IMG/VR virus record: IMGVR_UViG_3300025697_000177
Span: 1-21,072 of that record
Reading direction: 5' to 3' (one strand)
Source of the DNA: a virus
DNA length: 21,072 bases
The notes under the pieces were generated by a model that was not told where the DNA came from, searched no databases, and saw only the letters and a list, made by a program, of their open reading frames with translations. Below are positions 2,763 to 20,740 of the stretch, one piece after another (positions within the stretch are counted from its first letter, which is position 1; each line of letters opens with the position of its first letter). The translations under genes were made by a program, and so were the position numbers.

Positions 2763-3548
2763 TTATTTTAAATTAATTTTCTTTTCTTCTTCTTTTAGTT
2801 TCTGTAAATCTTTATCTGACCAACCATTAACAGGCATAAGCTTTTTAAAATATGAAATCCAGTAATCTCTATTAAAGTTAGTTTTAGAGTGACAACTATG
2901 ACATAAAGTTATAAGATTCTCTGAATTACAATTTTTCTTATCATAGTCTATATGGTGAACATGGACTGCTGGCTCTTTGCCACAAACCTGACAAGTATAA
3001 TAATCTCGTTGCCTAATACTTCTTTTTAATGTTCTAGTCCAATCTAATGAATACGGTTCAAAAGATATTCCGTCTTTCCACATATAACTTTTTTCACCCT
3101 TAAGAGCCTCGCTTCTTTTCTTCCTTTGAATATCTGCCTTATCTCCATATATTTGTTCATAAGTCTTGTCCTTAGTTGCTAATCCAAGCTTTCTTCTCCA
3201 TTCTTTTGAAAATGGTTTTCTTTTTTTACCCCTATGGGCTTCACTGTTTTTTCTATTATGCTCTTCTGATTTAGGTATTCCTCTTTGTGCATCTCCTATT
3301 TTTCTTCTTATTTCTTCTGCCTTATCTCCATATATTTGTTCATAGGTTTTATCTTTTAATCTCTCGGTTGTTCTTTTAGATAATCTTTGTTTCTTTAATA
3401 ATCCCTCTGGAGTTTTCCAAAACTTTTCAATAGATTCGCTTTGTTTTTTCTTGGTTTCTTCAGATACTATACGTCCTTTATTATATCCCTTAAGTCCTTT
3501 ATTCCATGAAGTTCTTTTATTTACTATTTTGTCCTTGTTGTTTTTCAT
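2763..3548 (-). CDS. HNH homing endonuclease with NUMOD-type repeats and a glycosyltransferase-derived tail
   Basis: A 261-residue free-standing endonuclease. The N-terminus carries NUMOD3-like DNA-binding motifs (SWNKGLKGYNKG, residues 14-25), followed by two copies of KDKTYEQIYGDKA (65-77 and 126-138). The C-terminal HNH domain has CQVCG (186-190), VHHIDYDKKN (197-206), the N-NL element (207-212) and CHSC (216-219), a zinc-stabilised HNH fold that nicks or cuts DNA. Residues 239-256 (PVNGWSDKDLQKLKE...) match the C-terminus of the glycosyltransferase encoded just upstream, which is foreign to HNH enzymes. The start overlaps the end of that glycosyltransferase by 32 bases, and the Ser-rich gene follows. 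I infer a selfish homing gene that inserted at the 3' end of the glycosyltransferase gene and carried or captured a copy of its tail. Confidence 0.88.
   Translation of the reverse strand: MKNNKDKIVNKRTSWNKGLKGYNKGRIVSEETKKKQSESIEKFWKTPEGLLKKQRLSKRTTERLKDKTYEQIYGDKAEEIRRKIGDAQRGIPKSEEHNRKNSEAHRGKKRKPFSKEWRRKLGLATKDKTYEQIYGDKADIQRKKRSEALKGEKSYMWKDGISFEPYSLDWTRTLKRSIRQRDYYTCQVCGKEPAVHVHHIDYDKKNCNSENLITLCHSCHSKTNFNRDYWISYFKKLMPVNGWSDKDLQKLKEEEKKINLK
3133..3344 (-). repeat. In-frame 29-bp duplication inside the HNH gene (two copies)
   Basis: An identical 29-base stretch occurs at 3133-3161 and at 3316-3344, offset 183 bases (61 codons) and in the same frame. It encodes most of the KDKTYEQIYGDKA motif twice in the endonuclease. 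Identity at the DNA level, with diverged sequence between the copies, suggests recent internal duplication or gene conversion of a DNA-recognition module. Confidence 0.8.
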
Positions 3549-4512
3549 ATTCTTTAAGTTTTTTTAAGTCTTCTTCCTTCCAACCATTTACGGGCCAGAA
3601 ACGAGAAATGAGCCAGCTAACTGGATAAACCTGATTAGGGTGTTTAAAGTTCCAAAATTTATCTCTGATATATCTTTTCGTTCTTTGAACATCTCTGCCT
3701 GATTGATGGTATGGAAAACTGAAATCGCCTCCTTGAGTTCTAAATAAATGAGCAAACCATGTATTCATGTTCACAATAACTTTATGTCCTGTGAGCCAGC
3801 TACTCAATGAAACTTCTATACCCTGATTACCCCAGCTTCCAGCCCTTTCATCACATACCTCCCAATCCCAGTAATTCTTACGAGTTAACATCCAGCAACT
3901 CCCTTGTAGCGACATTGTTTCAGTGAATCCGGTTTTCTTATCTGTTATATATGGTTCTCTGTGTTTATAATCTTCAAAATATTGAAAATGCGGTCTAGTA
4001 TCAAAAGAAAAAGAGGTACTCTGAGGATTATGTTTTCCAATCCAGCGCATTCTGTGTCTAATTTTATCTGAAGTACCACAATCGGGGCATATTTTTGGTG
4101 TAGGACCTTGATATTTTGTCCATCCGCATCTGTGACATTTCCAATCAAAGGCGTGTAAATTTCTCATAATTGGAACAGCCGTTACATCGTCGCCTGTTTT
4201 TTTAAATCCTTCTATCATTTTTCTATCGAACCCTTTGTCGAAACTACAATGTGCGTCAATTTTCATCACATAGTGAGCCCGAGATAGTTTACATAACTGA
4301 TTTGTCATTCCACGTTGACCTATAGAAACTGGGGAATAATAAATATTTACATCTGGATGCTGGGGAATAGGAGGATTAGCCCAATCACCATCTAAACCAA
4401 CAAGAATTTCAGTTTTGGCTTCCTTGTTTTCAAGAATATCCTGAATAGTTCGAGCCAAAAACATTTCTGACCTTGCAGGAATTAGAATTGAAAGTTCATA
4501 ATTATTCTTCAT
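3517..4512 (-). CDS. GT2-type glycosyltransferase with an internal zinc ribbon
   Basis: 331 residues, GT-A fold. The N-terminal ELSILIPARSEMFL is the usual first beta-strand, VGLDGDWAN the nucleotide-sugar region, and KIDAHCSFDKGFD (84-96) supplies the DxD-like metal and UDP-sugar site (D86, H88). Residues 126-146 hold CHRCG...CPDCG, a four-Cys zinc ribbon inserted into the catalytic domain, which is not part of ordinary GT2 enzymes. The second half (MSLQGSCWMLTRKNYW, WGNQGIEVSL) is the acceptor-side subdomain seen in many phage-encoded family 2 enzymes. The C-terminal 25 residues (PVNGWKEEDLKKLKEYEK...) are repeated at the end of the next gene. Translation start ATG 4512 overlaps the stop of the upstream HNH gene. 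Likely cytoplasmic, transferring a hexose to a protein, glycan or DNA; the acceptor is unknown. Confidence 0.82.
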   Translation of the reverse strand: MKNNYELSILIPARSEMFLARTIQDILENKEAKTEILVGLDGDWANPPIPQHPDVNIYYSPVSIGQRGMTNQLCKLSRAHYVMKIDAHCSFDKGFDRKMIEGFKKTGDDVTAVPIMRNLHAFDWKCHRCGWTKYQGPTPKICPDCGTSDKIRHRMRWIGKHNPQSTSFSFDTRPHFQYFEDYKHREPYITDKKTGFTETMSLQGSCWMLTRKNYWDWEVCDERAGSWGNQGIEVSLSSWLTGHKVIVNMNTWFAHLFRTQGGDFSFPYHQSGRDVQRTKRYIRDKFWNFKHPNQVYPVSWLISRFWPVNGWKEEDLKKLKEYEKQQGQNSK

Positions 4513-4972
4513 ATTACATGATATTTTAATTCAGCTTGTTTCCTAGCCAATATAGCGTCTTTAATGTCAAAAAATCTACCGAGAGGGATTGCTCCGCCAT
4601 TAATATGAATATACGCACACCATTTTTTTCTTTCCTTAGACCAACTGACTCCTTTTGTTCCAGAAGTATTGGCTTTATTTAAACTGGCGTTAAAAGCATT
4701 TTGCTGATTAGTTACACTTCTTAAATTAATTCTTCTGTTATCTAGTTGATTATGATTAATATGGTCAGTTTGTAGATTATCTGGAGTGTTATTAACAACT
4801 CTATGCATATAAACTTTTTTCATTTTATATTTTTTAAAACCCAGTTTTGTATATTTAGTTCTAATAGCATATCCATTATTATTAATATACCATTTCCATT
4901 GATTCAAATACTCGAAATCATCATTATCTACTGTGGCAAACGTACCTTTGTTTAGTTTTATTTTCTTCATAT
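4505..4972. repeat. 10-bp direct repeat bracketing the AP2-HNH gene
   Basis: TTCTTCATAT on the plus strand (ATATGAAGAA in the sense of the genes) is present at 4505-4514 and 4963-4972. Each copy includes an ATG: the start of the glycosyltransferase and of the endonuclease. Collapsing the repeat would remove the endonuclease and leave a normal leader and start for the glycosyltransferase. The repeat is AT-rich and short, so coincidence of start-codon contexts is possible. Confidence 0.45.
4509..4970 (-). CDS. HNH/AP2-domain homing endonuclease
   Basis: 153 residues. Residues 54-84 (YMHRVVNN...DHINHNQLDNRRINLR) are the compact HNH motif of the phage type, with the catalytic His pair and the Asn-Arg-Asn segment. 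Residues 103-146 (SGTKGVSWSKERKKWCAYI...LGRFFDIKDAILARKQAEL) form an AP2-like DNA-binding domain. The combination is typical of free-standing homing endonucleases in phages. The gene fits exactly between two copies of a 10-base sequence (4505-4514 and 4963-4972) that covers its own start codon and that of the downstream glycosyltransferase, and its stop overlaps that start as ATGA. I infer an insertion that left the downstream gene intact and translationally coupled. Confidence 0.88.
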   Translation of the reverse strand: MKKIKLNKGTFATVDNDDFEYLNQWKWYINNNGYAIRTKYTKLGFKKYKMKKVYMHRVVNNTPDNLQTDHINHNQLDNRRINLRSVTNQQNAFNASLNKANTSGTKGVSWSKERKKWCAYIHINGGAIPLGRFFDIKDAILARKQAELKYHVI

Positions 4973-4974
4973 AT

Positions 4975-5709
4975 TTATTTTTCTTTTGGTAGATTGAACA
5001 AACCCCTCAAGTCCCAATAGGGTATTTCTTCTATTGGTTTTTCATCCCAGTTCTCCGGTTTGTGCTTAAATGACTCTAGAGTAATCTTTGGTGCGGAAAA
5101 TGTACCAGGATGACGAATGTCTATATTAGGAAACTCTGACCTTCTCTTGATGTGGTCTTCATCTGTAATTCCACCTCGTCTTCTTTTTTTTGAGCCAGGT
5201 TCGTATCCAAACTTCCTTGCCCATCTCGGTTCTCTACTACGAATCTTATCTAATCCCCATTCTTCTATTCTTTTTAATCTATATTTATAATGTTTAATTG
5301 CTAATTCACGATTGCAACACAATCCTGATAATGAAGTTAATCCGTCATAAGTAATAGCTGTATCGTGTCCAAACCACCAACGCCAGTTATTTACATTATA
5401 ATAATATATATCATCTCTTGGTGGAATAAAGTCAAAATGAGATGGTCCATACAAAATGTCATGTTCCAGAAAGAAAACATAATCAGTCTTACTAGCTTCA
5501 AGTGCCATCAATATCTGTAATGCCATTGTAGGATAGCTTCTTTCTCTATTTTCTAAAACAATATTTTTACCAAAACTCATTGGTCTAAGAGTAATAGAAA
5601 CTATCTTGTTCTCATCAAAAACCTTTCTTAATTGCTCTTGACAAGCATTTAAAATTCTTTTATTTAGACGATTATCCGAATAATAAATTCCACCAACGGT
5701 TTTATTCAT
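4975..5709 (-). CDS. Putative GT-A-fold glycosyltransferase-like protein
   Basis: 244 residues. No named family is certain, but the layout is that of a small GT-A nucleotide-sugar transferase: a beta-strand start (TVGGIYYSDN), an ALEASKTDYVFFLEHD segment (70-84) in which LEHD resembles the metal-binding DxD site, then aromatic-rich acceptor regions (YYYNVNNWRWWFGHD) and a basic GSKKRRRGG turn. It is clearly paralogous to the protein at 6815-7462: both have A-(A/S)-KT-x-Y, an acidic (E-x-D) triad, a P-x-x-(F/Y)-x-F pattern and the N-x-x-W element at equivalent places. Its ATG overlaps the stop of the upstream methyltransferase (ATGA), so the two are probably translationally coupled. The role is likely sugar transfer in the same modification pathway; the acceptor is unknown. 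Confidence 0.65.
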   Translation of the reverse strand: MNKTVGGIYYSDNRLNKRILNACQEQLRKVFDENKIVSITLRPMSFGKNIVLENRERSYPTMALQILMALEASKTDYVFFLEHDILYGPSHFDFIPPRDDIYYYNVNNWRWWFGHDTAITYDGLTSLSGLCCNRELAIKHYKYRLKRIEEWGLDKIRSREPRWARKFGYEPGSKKRRRGGITDEDHIKRRSEFPNIDIRHPGTFSAPKITLESFKHKPENWDEKPIEEIPYWDLRGLFNLPKEK

Positions 5710-6263
5710 TTTTTAATCCAAAGCCAAGACAAATATTTATCTTTACCCTTGCCAATTACATATTTTTTAACTTTAAAAATCTTTTCAAAAATATCTACTG
5801 CGTATTTTACATGACATATTCTAATCCAATACGGATTATGATTATTTAAGAAATAATCGTGTCCCGAAATACATCCACCTACTTTAACTTTTTTATTCCA
5901 CTCATAAATATCTGAAACAATATATGGCAACGAGTGATTTCCATCAATATATATGAAGTCTAGGCTACCATCTGATATATCTCTAAGAGCATCCATTGAA
6001 GTTTTTTTAATTAATTTACCACCATAAGATTCTAATATCTTCTTAGACATTTCATACATTACTTCATAATCCATCTCTTTTGGATGTTTTCGATAATTCT
6101 CATAAACTATATATGGGTCAATGCCATATATTTTTAATCCTGCCTTACATAATTTTTCTGTATATTCTCCTTTATATACGCCGATTTCTGCTCCAACCTT
6201 ATATCCCATTTCGGTAAAAAACTTAGGCAAATCATCTCTTGATTTTATATCTTCAATATTCAT
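5706..6263 (-). CDS. Class I SAM-dependent methyltransferase
   Basis: 185 residues, Rossmann-type methyltransferase. GAEIGVYKGEYTEKL (24-38) is motif I binding S-adenosylmethionine, IYGIDPY (45-51) carries the acidic residue for the ribose hydroxyls, FIYIDGNHS (103-111) is motif IV, and GGCISGHDYF (129-138) follows. The IDGNHSY-like motif with a later GHDY is characteristic of the Methyltransf_24 type enzymes found among glycan O-methyltransferases. In this neighbourhood it most likely methylates a sugar or sugar-modified product, which is inference. It overlaps the downstream glycosyltransferase-like gene by four bases and follows another methyltransferase after 20 bases. Confidence 0.8.
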   Translation of the reverse strand: MNIEDIKSRDDLPKFFTEMGYKVGAEIGVYKGEYTEKLCKAGLKIYGIDPYIVYENYRKHPKEMDYEVMYEMSKKILESYGGKLIKKTSMDALRDISDGSLDFIYIDGNHSLPYIVSDIYEWNKKVKVGGCISGHDYFLNNHNPYWIRICHVKYAVDIFEKIFKVKKYVIGKGKDKYLSWLWIKK

Positions 6264-7462: not shown

Positions 7463-8174
7463 GTTTATTAAAAATTTTAATTAATCTTTTCGGTACTAAT
7501 GACATATTTAATTTGTTCTTGCCTTCTATATAAAATTCGTACTTGTCAGGAGTTAAATGGAAATGGGCTACTCGTATCGGTTTCTTAGTAGTCTTATATG
7601 TGGGTATAATATTAAACTTATGAAAGGCGTATGTCGTATTTACCATTTTAATTTGCTCTCTTAATGGACTATCTTCTCCATAATATATTCTCATAAGCGC
7701 TCTTTCTTCATTTATCTTATCTTTATCAATCTCTTTCTTCATCTGTTTAAAGACATCTTCTGCTTTATTATTAAAGAATATGCTGGCTGAACATAATCTT
7801 GGTCTTTGACAATAATTACTAACTCCAACGCTACATGAACCCATTTCCTGTTTTACTTCTGATTCAATTATCTTATTTAACTCATAACAGTCGAAATCGT
7901 GATACCAATATAATTCTTCTTCAATTAATCCTTTCTTAAAAAGCCTAACAATGGTATATAATTTTGTTGTTGGATAGAAGAAGTCGCAATAAACATCGTC
8001 TTCAATTAAGATAGCTTTAATTTTTCTATATTCATATTCAAAATTAGTTACTAGTATTATGTCGCTAGATTTCCAGCCTAAAGACAAACTATTATCAATT
8101 TGTATTTTAACTAATCGTTTATGGTCACTATTAAAACTCTTATCTGGACTTATATATATTAATAAATTCTTCAT
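7446..8174 (-). CDS. Putative glycosyltransferase-like protein with a DxD motif
   Basis: 242 residues, no firm family. The N-terminal NLLIYISPDKSF and the SSDIILVTNFEYEYR segment look like the first strands of a GT-A fold; YWYHDFDCYEL (89-99) contains a D-F-D metal-binding motif preceded by aromatic residues, as in several phage-encoded sugar transferases. The middle part (GVSNYCQRPRLCSASIFFNN) is an acceptor-side loop. Its ATG overlaps the stop of the radical SAM gene (ATGA) and its end overlaps the next glycosyltransferase-like gene, so it is a link in one co-translated run. Function is inferred from the DxD motif and the neighbours. Confidence 0.55.
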   Translation of the reverse strand: MKNLLIYISPDKSFNSDHKRLVKIQIDNSLSLGWKSSDIILVTNFEYEYRKIKAILIEDDVYCDFFYPTTKLYTIVRLFKKGLIEEELYWYHDFDCYELNKIIESEVKQEMGSCSVGVSNYCQRPRLCSASIFFNNKAEDVFKQMKKEIDKDKINEERALMRIYYGEDSPLREQIKMVNTTYAFHKFNIIPTYKTTKKPIRVAHFHLTPDKYEFYIEGKNKLNMSLVPKRLIKIFNKHGFKR

Positions 8175-8953
8175 TCTATGTTCTGATTACAGCGCCGACA
8201 AGGTTCCATGCTGTAGTCGAGATTTCTATGTTTATCTCTTAGCCATTTAGAATTATGCCAAATCTCTGTTAATGTGTTTTTATTTACATCTCCTAAAATT
8301 AATTTACCGTCATAATCTAAACAACATACAACAACTCTGCCGTCCCACAATATATTCATGGTTTGAGTTGATGAATAACATACTGTTCTTTTCCCTGTTC
8401 TTTCTAACTTATCATGTCTTGCTCCTCCCCAGTTTTTAAATTCACCGAATATGGCATTTTTACCCCATTGTTTTTTAAACATTTCTTTCTCATGTATATT
8501 CGCTTCAACTTCAACCATTGAAGCCCATACACCTGCTGGAAGATTCGCTTTTTCAATTAACTCTCTTACGTTTTTAGTTACTTTATTAAAATCTGGACCT
8601 CTCGTTATCTTTCTATGCGTTTCTTTAGTAGCTGCATTTACGCTACAACAGATAAGTCTAATATTCTTATATTTAAGAATTCTATCAACGTCCATTAATT
8701 CCGCATTTGTATATAAATGAACTTTTACATTCTCTTCTTGCATATAATCAAGCCATTTCCAAATCCTCGGAAATACGAATGGCTCTCCATTTAAAAATGG
8801 TACAAAGAATGAATATTTAATCTCTTTACCTTCTTTTATTATTTTATGAAATAACTCATCGCTCATTTCGCCTCTTGGTCTGGTCATATCATACCTTGGA
8901 CAAAAGGTACATCTAGCATTACAAGCCGTTGTGGCTTCAAGTTGAATCTTCAT
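8171..8953 (-). CDS. Radical SAM/SPASM enzyme
   Basis: 260 residues from ATG 8953, which overlaps the upstream stop as ATGA and is preferred over the GTG at 8965. CNARCTFCPR (11-20) is the CxxxCxxC motif that binds the SAM-cleaving 4Fe-4S cluster. NGEPFVFPR (GGEP-like) and CCSVNAA fit the radical SAM barrel. The C-terminal third (TVCYSS, VVCCLDYDGKLILGDV, LTEIWHNSKWL, EPCRRCNQ) is a SPASM-type region with enough Cys for an auxiliary Fe-S cluster. Family members activate peptides, sugars or other substrates by radical chemistry. It sits between a GT2 gene and a glycosyltransferase-like gene, so a role in making or modifying the sugar, or the protein that receives it, is plausible but inferred. 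Confidence 0.88.
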   Translation of the reverse strand: MKIQLEATTACNARCTFCPRYDMTRPRGEMSDELFHKIIKEGKEIKYSFFVPFLNGEPFVFPRIWKWLDYMQEENVKVHLYTNAELMDVDRILKYKNIRLICCSVNAATKETHRKITRGPDFNKVTKNVRELIEKANLPAGVWASMVEVEANIHEKEMFKKQWGKNAIFGEFKNWGGARHDKLERTGKRTVCYSSTQTMNILWDGRVVVCCLDYDGKLILGDVNKNTLTEIWHNSKWLRDKHRNLDYSMEPCRRCNQNIE

Positions 8954-9765
8954 AAATTTACCCACTTAGGTTTTATTTCTTCTTCCCAATATTTTTCCCA
9001 AATACTTAAAGAATACATCCAGCCACTTTTTGCATTAGCGGGATTTTCTTTAGTCCCCATATTGTGGGTTCTAGAGAAGCTTCTGTGCTTATGCGCGTAC
9101 CATACTTTTTTATTGTAATATAATTTTCCACCATTTTTCCAAGTTTTAAATACGGCCTCATGGCTATCGCCATAATGAGGACCATATCCTTCTGTTTCTA
9201 ATTCAACTATAGATTTGTCCCAATTTTCTCTAGAAGTAATCCAAAAACTCCCTTGCATGGCTTGAGCTTCTATGATTGATTCATCTTTTAATTCTTTAGC
9301 TCGGCTATTCCACCGTTGTCCAGCAAATTTGCGAATACCACTACCACAATCTTGAATTACTAGTTTTTCACAATCAATCGGTGGTAATTCTTTCATAATC
9401 TCCCATTTTTCGGGATTAAGAAAATACCTTCGTGCTGTCATTATATCCTTATGACTACACGAATCAGTTAAAATTTTATCATATCCTGGAGAAAACATAA
9501 TATGCTCATCACAACGCCCAATGTATTCACCCCTTGCTATTGCTACACCAGCATTAATCGCACCTCTCATGCCCCGATTTTTTCCTAGATGAACATACTT
9601 AACTCGCGAATCTTGTATAATATCTGAAGAATCTGCATAATATCCATCCCAAACAGCTATAACTTCCAGTTGTTCGCCTAATTGTGAATTACTTAAAAGA
9701 CTATCTATAGTTTTCCATAAAAATTTATCTTTATAACTTGGAATTACGACTGAAAGTTTAATCAT
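8950..9765 (-). CDS. GT2-family glycosyltransferase
   Basis: 271 residues. LSVVIPSYKDKFLWKTIDSLL (4-24 region) is the classic start of family 2 transferases; VIAVWDGYYAD gives the nucleotide-binding Asp, GKNRGMRGAINAG (61-73) the conserved loop, and IGRCDEHIMFSPGYD (82-96) the DxD-like metal site (D86-E87-H88). QGSFWITSREN and the C-terminal THNMGTKENPANAKSGW belong to the acceptor half. It is the first gene of the modification run after the capsid module and is separated from it by a 200-base non-coding region. Length is normal for a single-domain GT2. Its stop overlaps the radical SAM start. Related in fold to the GT2 at 3517-4512 but without the zinc ribbon. Confidence 0.88.
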   Translation of the reverse strand: MIKLSVVIPSYKDKFLWKTIDSLLSNSQLGEQLEVIAVWDGYYADSSDIIQDSRVKYVHLGKNRGMRGAINAGVAIARGEYIGRCDEHIMFSPGYDKILTDSCSHKDIMTARRYFLNPEKWEIMKELPPIDCEKLVIQDCGSGIRKFAGQRWNSRAKELKDESIIEAQAMQGSFWITSRENWDKSIVELETEGYGPHYGDSHEAVFKTWKNGGKLYYNKKVWYAHKHRSFSRTHNMGTKENPANAKSGWMYSLSIWEKYWEEEIKPKWVNL

Positions 9766-12911: not shown

Positions 12912-13074
12912 AGGTTTGATTTTTACTTACCTCAAGTAATAATTTGAATAATTTCTTCTCTGTTAATTCTTCTTTTTTATATAGTAAATATAATATTTCA
13001 AACCAAAAATCAATACTTAATTTTCTTTTAAACTTTTTAATTACCTTTTTATATAATTCTTCTTTGCTTAACAT
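12910..13074 (-). CDS. Small Lys/Leu-rich hypothetical protein
   Basis: 54 residues, beginning at an ATG that shares its A with the stop of the upstream head-morphogenesis gene (TAATG), a sign of translational coupling. It starts MLSKEELYKKVIKKFKRKL and continues as an amphipathic, basic, helical protein with an aromatic patch (IDFWFEILYLLYKK) and an LLLEV end. No cysteine and no membrane span. Function unknown. Its stop lies at the edge of the phased A-tract region of the next promoter. Confidence 0.6.
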   Translation of the reverse strand: MLSKEELYKKVIKKFKRKLSIDFWFEILYLLYKKEELTEKKLFKLLLEVSKNQT

Positions 13075-14207
13075 TATTTTATAGTTGTTATATTTTTTGG
13101 ATTAAAGATAACATAATAATTACTATCTTTTACCACAATAGCATCATAGTTCTTCCCTAGTTTCTTGTTAAATCTAAGGAGAGCTTTGTTTGTTGTCTTA
13201 ATATTCATTACTTTTTTAAATTTAGAAAGTTCTTTGTCGTAAACACCCTGATTTTTAAATCTTTTAATTCTTTTAATATTAGTTCTTAAATTTAAAACTG
13301 CTGGCTTCTTCTTTCCTCCTGTTGCCATTGTTACAAGTTGAGAATATACAGTAGCTCCTTTACGGTCTGGTGTAAGATAAACTCCTCTACCAAATGCTCC
13401 AGATTCGCTAATTCTAAATCCTCCTTTTGCTATGCTTTTAGCAGCATCGCTATTAGTTCCGTGATAAATAGGTTTTTTAAACTTACTATCTTTAGTCCAT
13501 TTATCTGCTCGAGCTTGTGTCATAGATGGTTTCCATTCTATGGGCTTTGTAGTAGGTTTAATAGAAGTAGGTATGTCGCCTTCTTTTAATACAGGCAAAA
13601 CAAGGCATTGGCAATTTGGATGCGTGACGTTAGGAGGGTCTCCGCCAAGACTAAAGCTTTCGTTTATTCCTACTACTTCTCCGTGCATACTTGAACACAA
13701 ATCGCAGGTATTTTGCGAAAATTCTGTCAGCCATTCCTTTCCTTTTACAACCTTACTTTGTTTATATCCCTCAACTGTGGCAAATACCGACGCTCTTGCA
13801 ACTTCTGTTTTCGCTATTGTCATTGCTCTCGTAGTAGAAGCTTGTTTATATACATTTCTTACTCTATTTCTTATACCTACAATACTTTCTCCCGCATCTA
13901 CTCCATCAGCTATTGCACTTGATATTCTTGTCTTAGTTGTTTTATTTATTCCTTTAGCGAATTCTAATCCATCTTTTTTTAAAAAGCTTCTTACGTTATT
14001 GGTATTATTATCAAATCCAGTTAATCCTAAAAACGCAAATGCTTCATCTCCATACTTAGCTACAACGTCTTTTATAAATGGAGTAAAATCCATCTTGGCT
14101 TTTGTCGTTTCTTTTGCTAAGTCGAAATTAAAATTAACTTCACTTTTAACGGTTGGTAAAACTCTTTTTTCTTGTTTTTTAAAATACTTTCTTATTAGAA
14201 CAAGCAT
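13074..14207 (-). CDS. Head morphogenesis protein (SPP1 gp7-like) fused to an ADP-ribosyltransferase-like domain
   Basis: 377 residues. Residues 90-205 match the phage Mu gpF/SPP1 gp7 minor head protein domain: helix with TRAMTIAKTEVARAS (126-140), KEWLTEF (157-163), TCDLCSSMHGE (167-177) and PPNVTHPNCQCLVLP (191-205). After a Pro/Lys linker (210-245) the C-terminus resembles the ADP-ribosyltransferase fold: PIYHGTNSDAAKSIAKGGF (246-264) with the NAD-binding YHGT, then GAFGRGVYLTPDRKGA (270-285) with the conserved Tyr, and a beta-rich end. The catalytic Glu of the H-Y-E triad is not obvious to me. The minor head protein is packaged in few copies near the portal, so a fused enzyme could be delivered into the host. 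It follows the portal gene by 29 bases. Confidence 0.85.
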   Translation of the reverse strand: MLVLIRKYFKKQEKRVLPTVKSEVNFNFDLAKETTKAKMDFTPFIKDVVAKYGDEAFAFLGLTGFDNNTNNVRSFLKKDGLEFAKGINKTTKTRISSAIADGVDAGESIVGIRNRVRNVYKQASTTRAMTIAKTEVARASVFATVEGYKQSKVVKGKEWLTEFSQNTCDLCSSMHGEVVGINESFSLGGDPPNVTHPNCQCLVLPVLKEGDIPTSIKPTTKPIEWKPSMTQARADKWTKDSKFKKPIYHGTNSDAAKSIAKGGFRISESGAFGRGVYLTPDRKGATVYSQLVTMATGGKKKPAVLNLRTNIKRIKRFKNQGVYDKELSKFKKVMNIKTTNKALLRFNKKLGKNYDAIVVKDSNYYVIFNPKNITTIK

Positions 14208-15838: not shown

Positions 15839-16054
15839 TTAATCTTCTTCTAAAGGAATATCTTTTGAATAAGTTCTATCGTCATTAATATCAAAACGTA
15901 TTGATTTCAAAGAATGCGTTGTCTTTTGAGGTTGTCCTTCTGCTATAATAAGATTGACTTCTCCATATCCAAGTCTTCTAGTAAATTCTATAAACCGATA
16001 TTCCTGTTCTGTTATTTTGGTTGTAATAAACCTTACTGTCTTTTCTCTTCGCAT
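15839..16054 (-). CDS. Small conserved-looking hypothetical protein
   Basis: 71 residues. After a basic start (MRREKTVRFITTKI), residues 17-45 (EYRFIEFTRRLGYGEVNLIIAEGQP) form a helix followed by a beta-hairpin with YGEV and EGQP, then a strand ending SIRFD and an acidic tail. This helix-hairpin layout resembles the small DUF2292/YezD-like proteins, which share a YG-V-...-DG-... core; the match is weak. Its start overlaps the end of the upstream glycosyltransferase by 22 bases. Function unknown. Confidence 0.6.
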   Translation of the reverse strand: MRREKTVRFITTKITEQEYRFIEFTRRLGYGEVNLIIAEGQPQKTTHSLKSIRFDINDDRTYSKDIPLEED

Positions 16055-16890
16055 ATTTTAATTATATCTTTAAACTGTTTAATCGTTTGTTCCATTGAAT
16101 ATTTTTCTTTTACCTCTTTCAATCTCTTGCTGGCTTCTTTCTTCCGTTCTTCTGGATTCATAAATCTTTGCAAATCACTTAATGTATCTGCAACAGGTAT
16201 TCCCATAGCCCAAGAAATGATAGTTTTATTATTAGATTTATATTTAAACTTCTTTAATCTAATTGGTCTAGGATTCATAACTATATCACAATCTAACATG
16301 TCATATATAAATGTATCCCAGATAAATGGTCTATTTTCAACTTCTACATGCGCACTTTCTTTTGGCTTATAATCGCTATTAGAAACAACCATTAATTTAA
16401 GTCCTAATTTACTTATAGAACTTAAGACCTGCGGTAATACAACCTTAGCGTTATGATGATATCCGAACCACCCAACGGTCTTAGCAAGATTGGTATGTTC
16501 TTTTTGTTTATTGATTATATCTAGATTAACTCTATCAGGAACATAATAAACTGGCTTAACTGCTATTTGTTTTATAAATTTATATAGTTCTTTGGAAGCA
16601 CAGGTAACTGCGTCTATATGTTGTTCTAATTTCTTAAACTCAAGGTCACTAGACAAGAAATCCGGGTCACACAAATCCAAGATTTTAATTCCCTTATAAT
16701 CCTGTACATAGTCTATCCAATATACTTTCTGAAAGATTATAGCATCAAACTTCTTACCTTCTGTGAATACCTCTGCTTCTTTCCATTTATCTGCTAACCA
16801 TTCACCTCTTATAACAGAAGAACCAATAGTTCCTCGTGGTCTCCCGTTCTTTTGAGCAAAAGTCATTATTCCTATTGTTTTAGTTTTCAT
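16033..16890 (-). CDS. GT4-like glycosyltransferase
   Basis: 285 residues, GT-B type. The N-terminal domain (IGIMTFAQKNGRPRGTIGSSV) contains the Gly-rich acceptor/donor loop, FDAIIFQKVYW and ILDLCDPDFL follow, and SKELYKF is the hinge-side helix. In the C-terminal domain TVGWFGYHHNAKV (138-150) is the start of the donor-binding Rossmann domain, and KSNNKTIISWAMGIPVADT (218-236) occupies the place of the E-x7-E motif and donor loop found in GT4 enzymes. It is short for a GT4 but the order of motifs is intact. It lies between the intein-bearing glycosyltransferase and the head module, so two GT4-type enzymes precede the structural genes while GT2-type ones follow them. Confidence 0.78.
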   Translation of the reverse strand: MKTKTIGIMTFAQKNGRPRGTIGSSVIRGEWLADKWKEAEVFTEGKKFDAIIFQKVYWIDYVQDYKGIKILDLCDPDFLSSDLEFKKLEQHIDAVTCASKELYKFIKQIAVKPVYYVPDRVNLDIINKQKEHTNLAKTVGWFGYHHNAKVVLPQVLSSISKLGLKLMVVSNSDYKPKESAHVEVENRPFIWDTFIYDMLDCDIVMNPRPIRLKKFKYKSNNKTIISWAMGIPVADTLSDLQRFMNPEERKKEASKRLKEVKEKYSMEQTIKQFKDIIKICEEKRQ

Positions 16891-17038: not shown

Positions 17039-19348
17039 TTATATCTTTAAAATATCGTGAATAAAGTTCATCCAATCTTCCCTATAACGCTTATAATTAA
17101 ACATTTTCTTAGCCGTTTCTTTTCCTTTCTGTCCTATCTCTATACAATCTTTATAATGATTTTCTATTAAATCAACTAATAACGCAGCTATCTCTCTTGG
17201 TTCATTATCTACAAGTATCATATTCTCTCCCTCTTTAATAAATTTATCTAAATCGTGAGCTCCTTTAACTTGAACAACACAACAACCAGAATTATGCGTA
17301 ACTAATCCATTAACTAAATAATTATGTCCATCAACAGCCAAATCATATATCTTGCCATTATATCTTTCTTTGGTTATCTCTTTAATTGGATAGAACCAAA
17401 GTTTATCATTTTTCCAATAACTATTGTATTTACATTCCAAGCTGTCATCTAAAACAAATCTCTCAGCAATGCCCTTGATTTTATCTCTGTGTCCACCATA
17501 ACTTCTAATAACATAACTATCACAAGACATTCTTTCTCTCTGTTTTCTTCTCTTTATTGAACCATGTATCATTAGCTTTTTCAGAACAAAATAAACCTGA
17601 TATGCCAATATAGATGAAACAGTAGTATAATTGGTCTCATCGTTGCCTAAATATCCATCTCCTCTATATAGTCCAGCCAATAAATGTATCAAGTTCTCTC
17701 TATCAGAATTCATCAACTCCAACGATATTCTTTTGTTCTTACATCCTTTTCCGCATGAATTCTCCAAAAATTCAGCAATTAGCATATTGTTAAAGACAAC
17801 CTCTGCTCTATTGTTAATCCTGAAAACAATCTTGGCATCAATTCCAAACAAATCCTTAACTAACCGCACAACATCTTTATGATATTCACTTTCTTTCTGA
17901 TGAAAACATAATTTGACAGTACTCCTTTGAGTATATCCTTCTGCTATATAATATCCAATAAATCTACTTAATTTTGATGTTATTTTTATCTCGTCTTTGA
18001 AAAATCCAATATCAGCATATCCGCCATCTTTTAAATAAGACAAAAACTGCATGCTCTTTTTTCCTGGCCACCTATTTTTTCTCAAACACTCTTTAATCCA
18101 ACCATAACTACGCCCTTGTTTTCTACAAACTTCTACTAAATTATTATGACAACCCTTCCACCTAATATAGCCATCTCTTTTAACTATCTTATCTCCAGAA
18201 ACATAATCAGATATCTTAATAATATCATCCTTATCATTTTTAAGAAAAGAAACAGGACTAACAAGGAAGTCATCTCTTTTTAGATTCTGTGCTTCAATCC
18301 ATTGCAATTTATAATCTTTATAGTATTTCTTAGAACATCTTTGTATACAGTTCGGTCTACAAATCATTCCATTACCAGTATGGCATTGCTTCGTCTTAAT
18401 TGCCAAAAATTTATGTTTACCAGAACATTCAATAGGTTCATGCCCAGATGCCTTAATGTGATAAAAATCTTCATTAGTATTCTTACTATAAACTTTTAAC
18501 ACCGTTTTCTTTTCACCATTCTTGTCTATTACCTTATCGTTTTCTTTTACATCTTTGATATCCTTATAACTAAAATCATTAGCCATTATAACCCTACTAT
18601 TGGGTTTAAGGCACATCATTGCTTCTGTCCTTGCTCTATTCATTGGCGTTCTAAAAGAAGTATCTAAATAAATTAAACTCGCTCCTAAGAAATTCTTATA
18701 ATCTTCAACCTTATGTCCCGTATCTACGTTTACTTTAGCCCACCATAAGTTGTATCCATATTTATCATTAAGAATATAAGATACATCATTCATTGCTTCT
18801 CTGTTATAATAATGGTCACAACCTCCCGGAGATAATGCTGTAAATATTCTTGGTTCTTTCGGTAAATCTACCCAATCTTTAGGATTCATGCCGTGCAGAA
18901 TAGGATAACCCCAGCCCCATTCTCTTTCTGTAGCTGATTCATAAGAATTAACTATCATGGGATTATCTCCTACAAGTTTTTTAATTTCAGCAATAACTAT
19001 CTTTTCGGCGTCTTTATAAGACATATCTCCTAATTTACAATATTCAGGATAAACTGGCGTTCCATGATTTATAACTACCTTAGGAATATCTTGTATAAGA
19101 TTATTCAAGTCAACATATATCTTTCTTTTACCAATATCTTTATTTACTAATTGTTGGTCAACGTCAAGTATAGCAAAATCGTATTTGCCCTTTTCATAAT
19201 ATGGAACGAAGTGTGCGTTCTTTGGAAGTGGTCTTGTATTTAGATACCATATTTTATTTGTATTGTGGCATAGATAGAATTCGCAATCATTCTTTAGTGC
19301 GCTGAAGAGGTCGAAAAAGTGCATTGTCACTTTCCCTAAGTATGCCAA
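17039..19348 (-). CDS. GT4-type glycosyltransferase interrupted by an intein
   Basis: 769-residue precursor; the joined exteins give about 328 residues. N-extein (1-245) includes IWYLNTRPLPKNAHFVPYYE, KYDFAILDVDQQLVN, KVVINHGTPVYPE, VNSYESATEREWGWG and PRIFTALSPGGCDHYYNRE, a GT-B fold of the kind found in phage clusters. RTPMNRARTEAMM (233-245) joins across the intein to SGCCVVQVKGAHDLDKF, recreating the TEAM-x-G-x-x-VV motif around the donor-binding E of GT4 enzymes. The annotated start is TTG 19348; ATG 19324 (MHFFDLF) is a better codon. Immediately upstream, in another frame, ATG 19395 with an AGGAGG ribosome site encodes KYKVFSTAWHT, which looks like the missing first strand, so the N-terminus may be frameshifted. 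If so, the functional enzyme needs a -1 shift or the gene is damaged. Confidence 0.85.
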   Translation of the reverse strand: MAYLGKVTMHFFDLFSALKNDCEFYLCHNTNKIWYLNTRPLPKNAHFVPYYEKGKYDFAILDVDQQLVNKDIGKRKIYVDLNNLIQDIPKVVINHGTPVYPEYCKLGDMSYKDAEKIVIAEIKKLVGDNPMIVNSYESATEREWGWGYPILHGMNPKDWVDLPKEPRIFTALSPGGCDHYYNREAMNDVSYILNDKYGYNLWWAKVNVDTGHKVEDYKNFLGASLIYLDTSFRTPMNRARTEAMMCLKPNSRVIMANDFSYKDIKDVKENDKVIDKNGEKKTVLKVYSKNTNEDFYHIKASGHEPIECSGKHKFLAIKTKQCHTGNGMICRPNCIQRCSKKYYKDYKLQWIEAQNLKRDDFLVSPVSFLKNDKDDIIKISDYVSGDKIVKRDGYIRWKGCHNNLVEVCRKQGRSYGWIKECLRKNRWPGKKSMQFLSYLKDGGYADIGFFKDEIKITSKLSRFIGYYIAEGYTQRSTVKLCFHQKESEYHKDVVRLVKDLFGIDAKIVFRINNRAEVVFNNMLIAEFLENSCGKGCKNKRISLELMNSDRENLIHLLAGLYRGDGYLGNDETNYTTVSSILAYQVYFVLKKLMIHGSIKRRKQRERMSCDSYVIRSYGGHRDKIKGIAERFVLDDSLECKYNSYWKNDKLWFYPIKEITKERYNGKIYDLAVDGHNYLVNGLVTHNSGCCVVQVKGAHDLDKFIKEGENMILVDNEPREIAALLVDLIENHYKDCIEIGQKGKETAKKMFNYKRYREDWMNFIHDILKI
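17291..18613 (-). mobile_element. Intein with LAGLIDADG homing endonuclease
   Basis: 441 residues, protein positions 246-686 of the glycosyltransferase precursor. It starts with Cys1 (CLKPNSRVIM), the Hint block A; block B is ECSGKHKFLAI (308-316 region) with the conserved His; it ends YNGKIYDLAVDGHNYLVNGLVTHN followed by Ser+1, the standard block F/G with terminal His-Asn. Two LAGLIDADG motifs, FIGYYIAEG (463-471) and LLAGLYRGDG (556-565), form a homing endonuclease of the dodecapeptide type. A four-Cys insert (C322, C330, C334, C338) near the start may bind zinc. All splicing residues look intact, so the intein is probably active. It interrupts the E-x7-E region of the host enzyme, a conserved active-site motif as inteins prefer. 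Confidence 0.95.
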
Positions 19349-19395
19349 GCGGTACTAAATACCTTATATTTTCTTTTTTTATGCTTGGACATCAT
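19336..19395 (-). pseudogene. Displaced N-terminal reading frame of the glycosyltransferase
   Basis: A 19-codon ORF with the strong ribosome site AGGAGGTGGTG before ATG 19395 (overlapping the HNH stop as ATGA). It encodes MMSKHKKRKYKVFSTAWHT and then TAG at 19338-19336. KYKVFSTAWHT looks like the first beta-strand and loop of the GT-B glycosyltransferase whose remaining frame opens at 19348. The two frames overlap between 19354 and 19339, and one extra base there (or a -1 shift) would join them into one protein. No canonical slippery heptamer is seen. It may be a true frameshift mutation, a sequencing error or programmed frameshifting. Confidence 0.5.
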
Positions 19396-20132
19396 GGGGA
19401 CACCACCTCCTCTAAATTCAATGCTATATTATACATAGTTTGAAAATAATCTTTCCAATGATTACGATTTCCGTTTGTCAATAAATGACAATCATGACAA
19501 AGCGCAATTAAATTGTTTGGATTATTGTTTTTTTTATTGTAATCAATATGATGAACATCTAATTCTCGACCGTTTGTATCTTTATCTTTTCCACATATAC
19601 TACAAATATTTCCACTTCTATCTCTAATGCGTTTCTTCAGTTTATAATTGAAATCTCTACTATACGCTTCAAAAGATTTTCCGTCTTGCCAATTCGGATT
19701 ATTCACACCAATCATACCTTTATGCCCTTCTTTATATTGTGATTTAGTCTTATTGCCTTTCTGAAATCCCTTAGGCTTACCAGTTCCTTTCTTTTTTCTT
19801 TTAATAGTTTTGATAGTGTATACGCTATAAGACTTAGTCCATCCCTTCAAATTTTTGTTCCAAGGCTCTCTACCAACATTAATCGTGTGTCCTATCTTAA
19901 AAATATAATCATTACCAATTCTATCTTTTGCCATACATTCTTGACTACAATAAATTCTTTTTTCAAATGCCTTGCCATAAACACTAATGTCTTTCTTTGT
20001 AAAACTTTTCCCACAAATAGGACAGATTTTATATAGTTCTTTGTTTGTATCATAAAAAATATACTTTTCTCTTTTATTAAAATAAGTTTTAGCAATTTTT
20101 CCAACTCCCTTATATTTCTTCTGCTTAGTCAT
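19392..20132 (-). CDS. HNH homing endonuclease with N-terminal zinc finger and NUMOD3 motif
   Basis: 246 residues, preceded by a near-perfect ribosome site (AAGGAGGTGGTG, then ATG 20132). CPICG...YCSQEC (37-66) is a zinc-finger-like segment, GREPWNKNLKGW (87-98) a NUMOD3 DNA-binding motif, and NNPNWQDGKSFEAYSRDFNYKL aligns with the same part of the HNH enzyme at 2763-3548. The nuclease domain carries CSICG (177-181), DVHHIDYNKKN (192-202) and LCHDC (211-215). The final residues LEEVVSP are encoded by a second copy of the ribosome-site sequence, so the gene seems to have inserted in front of the glycosyltransferase with duplication of that site. Free-standing, non-intron-bound. Confidence 0.88.
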   Translation of the reverse strand: MTKQKKYKGVGKIAKTYFNKREKYIFYDTNKELYKICPICGKSFTKKDISVYGKAFEKRIYCSQECMAKDRIGNDYIFKIGHTINVGREPWNKNLKGWTKSYSVYTIKTIKRKKKGTGKPKGFQKGNKTKSQYKEGHKGMIGVNNPNWQDGKSFEAYSRDFNYKLKKRIRDRSGNICSICGKDKDTNGRELDVHHIDYNKKNNNPNNLIALCHDCHLLTNGNRNHWKDYFQTMYNIALNLEEVVSP

Positions 20133-20147
20133 ATCGCACCACCTCCT
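19401..20147. repeat. 11-bp direct repeat (ribosome-site sequence) bracketing the HNH gene
   Basis: CACCACCTCCT on the plus strand, i.e. AGGAGGTGGTG in the gene sense, occurs at 19401-19411 and 20137-20147. The upstream copy is the ribosome site of the HNH gene; the downstream copy lies in its last codons and would serve as ribosome site for ATG 19395 of the glycosyltransferase. Deleting one repeat unit with the HNH gene would put that site directly before the glycosyltransferase start. Confidence 0.7.
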
Positions 20148-20180
20148 TCAAGTTTTTTGTTTTTTATCATATTTATTCTT

Positions 20181-20542: not shown

Positions 20543-20572
20543 ATTATTTTTTTAACAAATCATATCTAATAT

Positions 20573-20740
20573 GCCCCCATGGCTCAATGGATAGAGCGAG
20601 TCTCCACTAATATTTGACATAAATATGGTTGCGAGTTCGAGTCCCGTCCCTTTTTCTTATATCGAATGAAAATGAATGAAATTAAATTACTAAATTAAAG
20701 CGATGGTCTGCTAAGCCTTAGGTAGTCGCATATCGGGGGC
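20573..20740 (+). other. tRNA-like element with scrambled domain order
   Basis: The plus strand starts with GCCCCCA TG GCTC AATGGATA GAGC G, a good acceptor 5' half and D-arm (A-box TGGCTCAATGG exact). The matching acceptor 3' half is GGGGGC at 20735-20740, 168 bases away, not the usual 75-90. In between come a T-arm-like segment (GCGAG TTCGAGT CCCGT, 20631-20647) and then, after an AT-rich spacer, an anticodon arm resembling a serine GCU tRNA (GGTCTGCTAAGCC, 20705-20717). In a normal tRNA the anticodon arm precedes the T-arm. If the two segments are exchanged, a molecule of about 86 nt, class II size, results. A long-range pairing ATAT(GGTT)GCGA (20623-20634) with TCGCATAT (20726-20733) supports folding of the present order. 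Could be a permuted or degraded tRNA. Confidence 0.4.

Follow-up and report, generated by a model that had tools for sequence, protein, structure and literature searches.

How can a gene that is interrupted at its two most conserved motifs still specify a working enzyme? The question is raised by a glycosyltransferase gene on the minus strand of the IMG/VR virus record IMGVR_UViG_3300025697_000177, positions 1 to 21,072 (hereafter, the window, meaning the whole stretch of 21,072 nucleotides (nt) that was analyzed). An earlier note, made from the sequence alone, had described the frame at 17039-19348 as a GT4 glycosyltransferase with an intein in its active-site motif. The frame is indeed open (769 amino acids (aa); first listed start, TTG) and the intein is real, but the start at TTG 19348 did not hold, because the first 19 codons of the gene lie in another frame, at 19395-19339, and are followed by a short gap. 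This broken N-terminus, its recurrence in relatives and an HNH endonuclease gene directly upstream were all outside that account. Our best reading is that the recurrent gaps are mobile translational-bypass (“stop-hop”) elements resembling those of T4 mobA and gene 60, and that the window gene carries an ordinary intein in addition. Judged from its sequence, the gene is probably that of a working phage GT4 glycosyltransferase which has been the target of two invasions, one at each of its two most conserved motifs. The intein belongs to a known kind of element and has a rare kind of host; the more important result is the set of proposed hop elements in this gene and in related ones, for which the comparative support is strong.

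Two alignments defined the family. Alignment A1, of intein-free relatives, retrieved 67 viral loci, and alignment A2 comprised the intact homologue L015 and 38 others (L-numbers denote the compared loci or contigs of related viruses). Homologues begin with (K/R)hhhTxPWHTMHFYDLF. In the window, the corresponding N-terminal segment, which includes the first strand and the W-H of the WHxxH motif, is preceded by a Shine-Dalgarno-like GGAGG and ends at an ACT codon followed by an in-frame TAG, and the frame resumes as MHFFDLF after a gap of 14 nt. Residues W16, H17 and H20 of WHxxH were near-invariant in the 39 intact homologues, and the motif directly follows strand 1 of the modeled GT4 fold; hence, the body alone would be without part of the enzyme. 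The same broken N-terminus was present in the near-identical contig L004/L014, and L013, an intein-free relative with 71% identity, was broken likewise. Between the window gene and L013 the gap length changes by 6 nt, which leaves the frame relation intact.

The break was found in 19 distinct genes, drawn from two homologue collections, among the 77 family members compared, and in all of them it lies at the WHxxH motif (see the table). A stop codon directly follows the take-off codon in 18 of these genes, the exception being L062. Resume points were fixed by the family alignment and not by codon matching, except in L062, which was placed by its match. Because the gap lengths, from 5 to 25 nt, cover all three phases, a single fixed frameshift is excluded. 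Programmed −1 frameshifting and stop-codon readthrough are both commoner than bypassing, and the window gene and L013 do resume in the −1 frame; however, the spread over three phases argues against either process, no slippery heptamer was found in the window, and both would insert into WHxxH residues never seen in intact homologues (the window gap encodes LGKVT). We therefore regard frameshifting or readthrough as highly improbable.

Codons at the two edges of the gap are matched. The landing codon, taken as the final three bases of the gap, specifies the take-off residue in 13 of the 19 genes (12 of 18 without L062); five pairs are identical and eight differ at the third base only, the window pair ACT/ACA being synonymous. 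None of 50,000 shuffles reached 13 matches (mean, 4.3; P<2e-5), and other offsets gave 0-2 matches, except +7 (4) and +9 (11, owing to the conserved His of WHxxH). The sequence before the gap is also distinctive. The 70 nt up to the take-off codon fold with a mean of −24.2 kcal/mol (z −4.9) in the 19 gapped genes versus −6.5 kcal/mol (z +0.25) in 56 intact ones (P=3e-10), and a control region 200 nt downstream showed no such difference (P=0.27). In all 19 genes, pairing in the stem stops 0-3 nt short of where the take-off codon ends. Example stem-loops of gapped genes folded alone reached −28 to −34 kcal/mol; that of the window, folded within the 57-nt segment, gave −11.9 kcal/mol (z −2.8).

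Inverted repeats beside short duplicated triplets could also be read as footprints in the DNA, namely the short target duplications left by a transposon or hairpin element, and would then involve no ribosomal hop. Five of the pairs are indeed identical triplets around 4-5 nt, small transposable elements have inverted repeats as well, and the tree pattern described below is insertion-like. However, the remaining eight pairs, with differences confined to the third base, give the appearance of codon-level selection, the gap begins with a stop in 18 of 19 genes, and the inverted repeats lie within recoded sequence whose amino acids are conserved. Footprints would moreover leave the genes dead, yet purifying selection acts on them. 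We consider this explanation very unlikely.

That selection was seen in the bodies of the genes, where the ratio of nonsynonymous to synonymous substitution rates (dN/dS) was 0.14 for the window gene/L013 and for L031/L052 (all gapped) and 0.017 for L034/L033, with values of 0.02-0.19 overall. Frame breaks in metagenomic contigs are often assembly errors or marks of pseudogenes, and a fragile site might accumulate them. Against such decay or error stand these ratios and the recovery of the same gap from two independent metagenomes, both for the window gene and for L102/L104; further, 19 breaks fall at one codon position, their bodies are open, and their codons and stems are highly non-random. 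Decayed genes or assembly errors thus have hardly any probability left.

A gene with the intein only, which would start at TTG 19348 or ATG 19324 and for which the upstream out-of-frame codons would be irrelevant, agrees with the open frame as first described, and an AGGGA-like sequence precedes ATG 19324. Internal initiation is possible for the window gene, L013 and L019, which all resume at an ATG. A gene with such a start would lose strand 1 and the near-invariant W-H. Moreover, a start codon is missing from the resume point in most of the remaining gapped genes (e.g., L031, L046, L047, L052, L054, L055, L062, L147 and L155), and the stop position, the codon matching and the stem-loops would be left unexplained. 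This alternative is unlikely, and translational bypassing of the gap is, from the combined sequence features, the probable course.

Several further observations weigh against bypassing by a mobile element. The landing codon is non-cognate in six of the 19 genes (L031, L034, L047, L054, L063 and L152), five of which could re-pair at the His 9 nt further on, at the cost of three residues. The window, L013, L019 and L155 have some of the weaker stem-loops of the set; in frames of 70-75 nt, the z of the window stem is about −1.1 to −1.4. No T4-like hairpin was found inside the gaps of the 19 genes, except CCCCC-GCAA-GGGGG in L052. About half of the gapped genes have no adjacent HNH gene. The gene was also absent from cultured phages: tblastn searches of 50,697 phage records with the extein gave no match, and two intact homologues as queries gave none either.

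We propose that the HNH-associated element swaps the first ~60 nt of the coding sequence for a recoded copy that forms a stem-loop in the mRNA; this structure would end at the take-off codon, with the stop codon and a short untranslated gap coming next. The ribosome would read MMSKHKKRKYKVFSTAWHT up to ACU, bringing the stop codon into the A site. The stem-loop might then re-form behind the ribosome, while the peptidyl-tRNA-Thr releases ACU, slides 14 nt and re-pairs with ACA. Translation would restart at AUG-CAC to give ...AWHT-MHFFDLF, the exact family sequence, and the joined product across the gap is expected to contain ...STAWHTMHFFDLF....

Are the gaps themselves mobile? On a quick tree of the 77 bodies (LG+G4), the gapped state is scattered and requires 16 changes, at least 15 of which well-supported branches make unavoidable; shuffled gap labels need a similar number (mean, 17.1). 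A gapped gene often has an intact gene as its nearest relative. In the pairs L062/L059, L047/L073 and L054/L160, the gapped member has 530-590 extra nt containing an HNH gene between homologous flanks, and in the first two pairs the end of the insert coincides with the gap. The window has the HNH gene, whose TGA stop overlaps the start of the glycosyltransferase gene (ATGA), but no clean upstream flank for such a comparison. An HNH gene lies directly upstream of seven of 16 gapped genes, as recognized by profile (the window gene, L054, L062, L155 and L102) or by motif reading (L047 and L144), versus two of 44 intact ones (Fisher P=8e-4). As HNH genes are absent from about half of the gapped genes and present at two intact ones, the link is statistical only, and the initial assumption that the HNH gene makes the gap, as in T4, was given up on this incomplete co-occurrence. 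We lean, if only slightly, toward a gap that travels as an HNH-linked mobile cassette. On the minus strand, the start regions of the HNH gene (20090-20150) and of the glycosyltransferase gene (19370-19410) are alike (GGAGGTGGTG ... ATG ... AAATATAAGG), which gives the impression that the HNH gene took over the initiation region. The HNH gene start is also where contigs L004/L014 begin, and the first base of contig L003, which comes from another metagenome and is 99.7% identical, lies 10 nt from the C-terminal junction of the intein; these ends coincide with insert borders, which suggests mixed alleles in the populations.

Table. Features of the window gene and its neighbors, followed by the gaps of related genes. 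Positions are those of the window. For gaps, the take-off codon is given first, and the last three bases of the gap are the landing codon.
Feature	Position	Strand	Sequence	Basis or remark
N-terminal segment, other frame	19339..19395	-	MMSKHKKRKYKVFSTAWHT	homologues, KIFTTPWHTMHFYDLF etc.; first strand and W-H of WHxxH
Proposed take-off codon	19339..19341	-	ACT (Thr)	last sense codon before in-frame TAG
Gap, window gene	19325..19338	-	ACT, TAGGGAAAGTGACA	14 nt; TAG right after take-off; proposed landing codon ACA (Thr), 19327-19325
Stem-loop, 5′ arm	19383..19392	-	ATGTCCAAGC	fold of 57-nt segment
Stem-loop, 3′ arm	19342..19350	-	GCTTGGCAT	fold; ends directly before take-off codon
N-extein, body of GT4 glycosyltransferase	18614..19324	-	MHFFDLF...RTPMNRARTEAMM	67 viral homologues; GT4 fold of intact homologue
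Class 1 intein with LAGLIDADG endonuclease domain	17291..18613	-		Pfam; boundaries from intein-free homologues
First LAGLIDADG motif	17930..17971	-	LSRFIGYYIAEGYT	sequence; Pfam LAGLIDADG_3; PI-PkoII alignment
Second LAGLIDADG motif	17645..17689	-	IHLLAGLYRGDGYLG	sequence; Pfam
C-extein	17042..17290	-	SGCCVVQ...DILKI	stop codon 17041-17039
Free-standing HNH endonuclease gene, directly upstream	19392..20132	-		Pfam HNH 6e-5; PHROG HNH endonuclease 4e-15
Second glycosyltransferase gene, intein-free	16033..16890	-	ILDL/CDPDF	homologues; predicted fold
Gap, L013			ACT, TGAAGACG	8 nt
Gap, L019			TGT, TAAATGC	7 nt
Gap, L031			CAC, TGACCTT	7 nt
Gap, L034			CAC, TAGTCAA	7 nt
Gap, L046			CAC, TAACAT	6 nt
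Gap, L047			CAC, TGATCTC	7 nt
Gap, L052			GCT, TGACCCCCGCAAGGGGGATTGGGCA	25 nt
Gap, L054			TGG, TAACCCAGC	9 nt
Gap, L055			CAC, TGAAAAAGCAT	11 nt
Gap, L062			CAA, CGGCTCAA	8 nt
Gap, L063			CAC, TAGTTCCC	8 nt
Gap, L068			ACT, TAACA	5 nt
Gap, L102			CAC, TGATCAC	7 nt
Gap, L138			CAC, TGACAT	6 nt
Gap, L144			CAT, TGACCAT	7 nt
Gap, L147			TGG, TAACTGG	7 nt
Gap, L152			CAT, TAGTCCAA	8 nt
Gap, L155			CAT, TAGTGCAT	8 nt

The same design was found in a second gene family. A loose scan of the retrieved loci for a stem, a stop, a cognate landing codon and a long frame yielded one convincing case outside the glycosyltransferases, at L147:4690-4720 (=L164:4696-4722). There, a GDP-mannose 4,6-dehydratase gene (Pfam, 6.7e-69) is interrupted in the GITGQDG motif by CAA-TGA-CAA, so that the coding sequence of the nucleotide-binding motif GITGQDGSYL reads ...GGT CAA TGA CAA GAC... 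(ITGQ-TGA-CAA-DGSYL), and a stem-loop of −24.5 kcal/mol precedes the stop. A second match to this pattern, L165, was rejected as a chance one (non-coding; stem z about 0). In an unbiased scan for hairpins before stops, the glycosyltransferase gaps ranked at the top, and GC-rich contigs gave many low-value matches. A pattern scan for gapped genes with the HQYEL context returned only the contig of L031, and a tblastn scan of the loci for further frame-broken genes returned mostly gene pairs that form a single fused gene in one phage but two genes in another. A single-sequence search of genome contigs gave one Gammaproteobacterial match, which was spurious. Hop elements in at least two gene families, natural in-frame stop hops among them, are somewhat favored by these sequences.

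The second interruption of the window gene is the intein, which corresponds to residues 246-686 of the frame (441 aa, CLKPNSRV...VNGLVTHN). As the earlier note had claimed, its splicing residues are intact: Cys1 is the C of CLKPNSRV (window 18613), block B (CSGKH, HEPIECSGKHKFL) has its His, with Ser where Thr is usual, and the C-terminal end, THN/S, has His-Asn and Ser+1 (a solidus marks the insertion point). Block F reads YDLAVDGH. Pfam matches to Intein_splicing (PF14890; E=6e-13, 49 bits versus a cut-off of 35.8) and LAGLIDADG_3 (PF14528; E=9e-12) were obtained, and among PDB sequences the homing endonuclease PI-PkoII came closest (E=3.8e-7). Both LAGLIDADG motifs, likewise noted there, are present (LSRFIGYYIAEG and LLAGLYRGDGYLG; GYYIAEG and LYRGDG, with acidic residues). 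This is almost certainly an intein with intact splicing and nuclease motifs, and it very probably splices. It would leave the EAMM/SG site by ordinary protein splicing after translation and presumably spreads by homing. A near-identical phage from another metagenome, IMGVR 3300025736_001708 (99.9%), carries the same intein-containing gene, and the intein thus occurs in another phage record.

The host protein emerges once the exteins are joined. The precursor had no glycosyltransferase profile match, and the joined exteins matched Glyco_trans_1_4 at 1.7e-5, across the junction (RTPMNRARTEAMM/SGCCVVQ). With the joined exteins as the query, glycosyltransferases of Aminobacter and Azospirillum plasmids (25% identity) were found, which have RSPMPRxRxEAMM and then xG directly, and a 64-kb phage contig has the same motif. 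Dozens of intein-free relatives have the family motif R(S/T)PMxRxRTEAM(M/L)/SGCCVVQ uninterrupted, and in L013 and L015-L027 (50-71% identity) TEAM(M/L)SGCCVVQ is without insert, so the extein junction TEAMM-SGCCVV had been predicted correctly. The AlphaFold model of the intact homologue L015 (predicted local distance difference test (pLDDT), 94.2) has a GT4 (GT-B) fold; it gave 221 PDB matches in Foldseek at E<=1e-3, of which the best listed ones are GT4-type (BshA, MshA, HepE, PimA and sucrose-phosphate synthase). E-A-M-x-S-G is invariant or nearly so in A2, and in the E-x7-E donor motif the second Glu (that of EAM) is invariant, the first position being Ser/Thr in this family. The intein lies inside the most conserved donor-side motif of the family, and from what is known of GT4 enzymes, splicing would be needed before activity, as had been proposed.

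The further proposal, that splicing serves as a control point for glycan synthesis, found no regulatory feature in the sequence that would set this intein apart from an ordinary selfish one. Insertion in a catalytic motif does make splicing obligatory for activity, and some inteins show condition-sensitive splicing. However, inteins as a rule insert in conserved functional sites (PMC2814812), so that a selfish LAGLIDADG intein in such a site is the default expectation, and relatives do without it; a regulatory switch is quite unlikely. The view that a sugar transferase is an unusual intein host was borne out. In a survey of mycobacteriophage inteins, the hosts are mostly nucleic-acid enzymes and “glycosyl” is absent from the text (PMC5050341); no report of glycosyltransferase hosts turned up in open-access papers, which is not proof of absence. 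With the phage class 1 LAGLIDADG inteins of TerL, RecB-like and portal proteins (PMC5050341), the window intein shares Hint blocks A, B, F and G, two LAGLIDADG motifs, insertion in a conserved active site and sporadic presence among relatives. Unlike them, it has a GT4 glycosyltransferase as host, and glycosyltransferase genes of this phage group are invaded at two sites. The second site is seen in homologues of the intein-free glycosyltransferase gene downstream (predicted GT-B/GT4-like fold; pLDDT 94.7; best Foldseek match, PimA), which bear an intein at ILD[LI]/C in L008:429-2399 and L064:7151-9079. Glycosyltransferase inteins are thus recurrent in the group, and the list of intein hosts now includes glycosyltransferases, with two distinct insertion sites. 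Further inteins came up in a Pfam scan of related contigs, in portal/MuF-type, helicase, nuclease-like and terminase-like genes (L079, L081, L082, L085 and L086).

Elsewhere in the window, two more HNH endonuclease genes (2763-3548 and 4509-4970, minus strand) flank a GT2-type glycosyltransferase gene (3517-4512), so the sugar-gene region is crowded with homing-type genes. Genes for a Radical SAM/SPASM protein (8171-8965) and a Methyltransf_24 protein (5706-6263), both on the minus strand, are interspersed with the glycosyltransferase genes, on the downstream side of the capsid gene, and a Mu F-like head protein at 13074-14207 (minus) is fused to an ART-PolyVal ADP-ribosyltransferase domain (Pfam 9e-8). 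ARAGORN found no tRNA and Rfam no family in the window; a tRNA-like stretch at about 20570-20665 (plus strand), GCTCAATGGATAGAGC ... GTTCGAGTCCCGTCCC, was called by neither.

Work on efficient bypassing has, to our knowledge, dealt almost entirely with T4 gene 60 as the single bacterial or phage example. The family described here has in common with T4 gene 60 and mobA (PMC3014915, PMC5009743) a stop right after take-off, a matched landing codon, upstream mRNA structure, a neighboring HNH gene and insertion in a gene that is continuous in relatives. The gap of gene 60 is 50 nt with a stem inside it, whereas the gaps here are 5-25 nt and the stem is found on their 5′ side, with its end at the take-off codon. 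Matched codons are often synonymous, unlike the identical T4 pair, and a T4-type nascent peptide was not recognized in the family. Also unlike gene 60, the gaps recur, in at least 19 genes of one family and in the GDP-mannose dehydratase. With its 14-nt gap, a stem-loop 5′ of the gap and no tetraloop stem within it, the window element is not classed as T4-type, although it would work like one.

There are other precedents. Synthetic “stop hops” in E. coli, known from constructs only, are nine-nt codon-stop-codon sequences read as one residue (PMC5009743), and this exact form occurs in L046 (CAC-TAA-CAT), L138 (CAC-TGA-CAT) and L164 (CAA-TGA-CAA). According to the same 2016 review, no natural in-frame stop hop was known, and shorter-distance counterparts with matched codons were to be expected; we found no later report in the open-access literature, subscription papers and preprints being outside the search. 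The byp elements of Magnusiomyces capitatus mitochondria (PMC5009743) are similarly numerous, short, translated-over inserts with codon matches that are sometimes imperfect. They belong to mitochondrial ribosomes and are, per the review, context-independent, whereas the elements described here are in phage genes, at one position and behind a strong 5′ stem-loop. A candidate terminase bypass in Streptomyces phage Hau3 (PMC5009743) is also a short coding gap in a phage gene, but it is UUA-codon based, with no HNH gene or recurrent stem described. Some candidate phyla radiation (CPR) lineages are without ribosomal protein L9 (PMC7304191), and we may speculate that host ribosomes are hop-prone, for instance through lack of L9.

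Taken from the sequences, it seems slightly more probable than its opposite that a widespread group of uncultured phages carries site-specific, HNH-linked mobile “translational introns”, which would enter genes at a conserved codon pair and act by recoding of the upstream codons into a stem and a short hop between cognate codons across a stop. With similar, modest confidence, the window gene can be seen as bearing two inserts of different kinds that would both be invisible in the product, one skipped in translation and the other, the intein, removed afterwards. Automatic annotation would then mis-start or split the gapped genes. The family offers 19 diverged natural hop candidates, many with an intact near relative as a control, and the dehydratase adds one in a second family; since these candidates vary in stem, stop, gap length and codon match, each independently of the others, the rules of hopping are testable by swapping natural variants. 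As a whole, these elements suggest a third class of self-concealing mobile insert beside introns and inteins.

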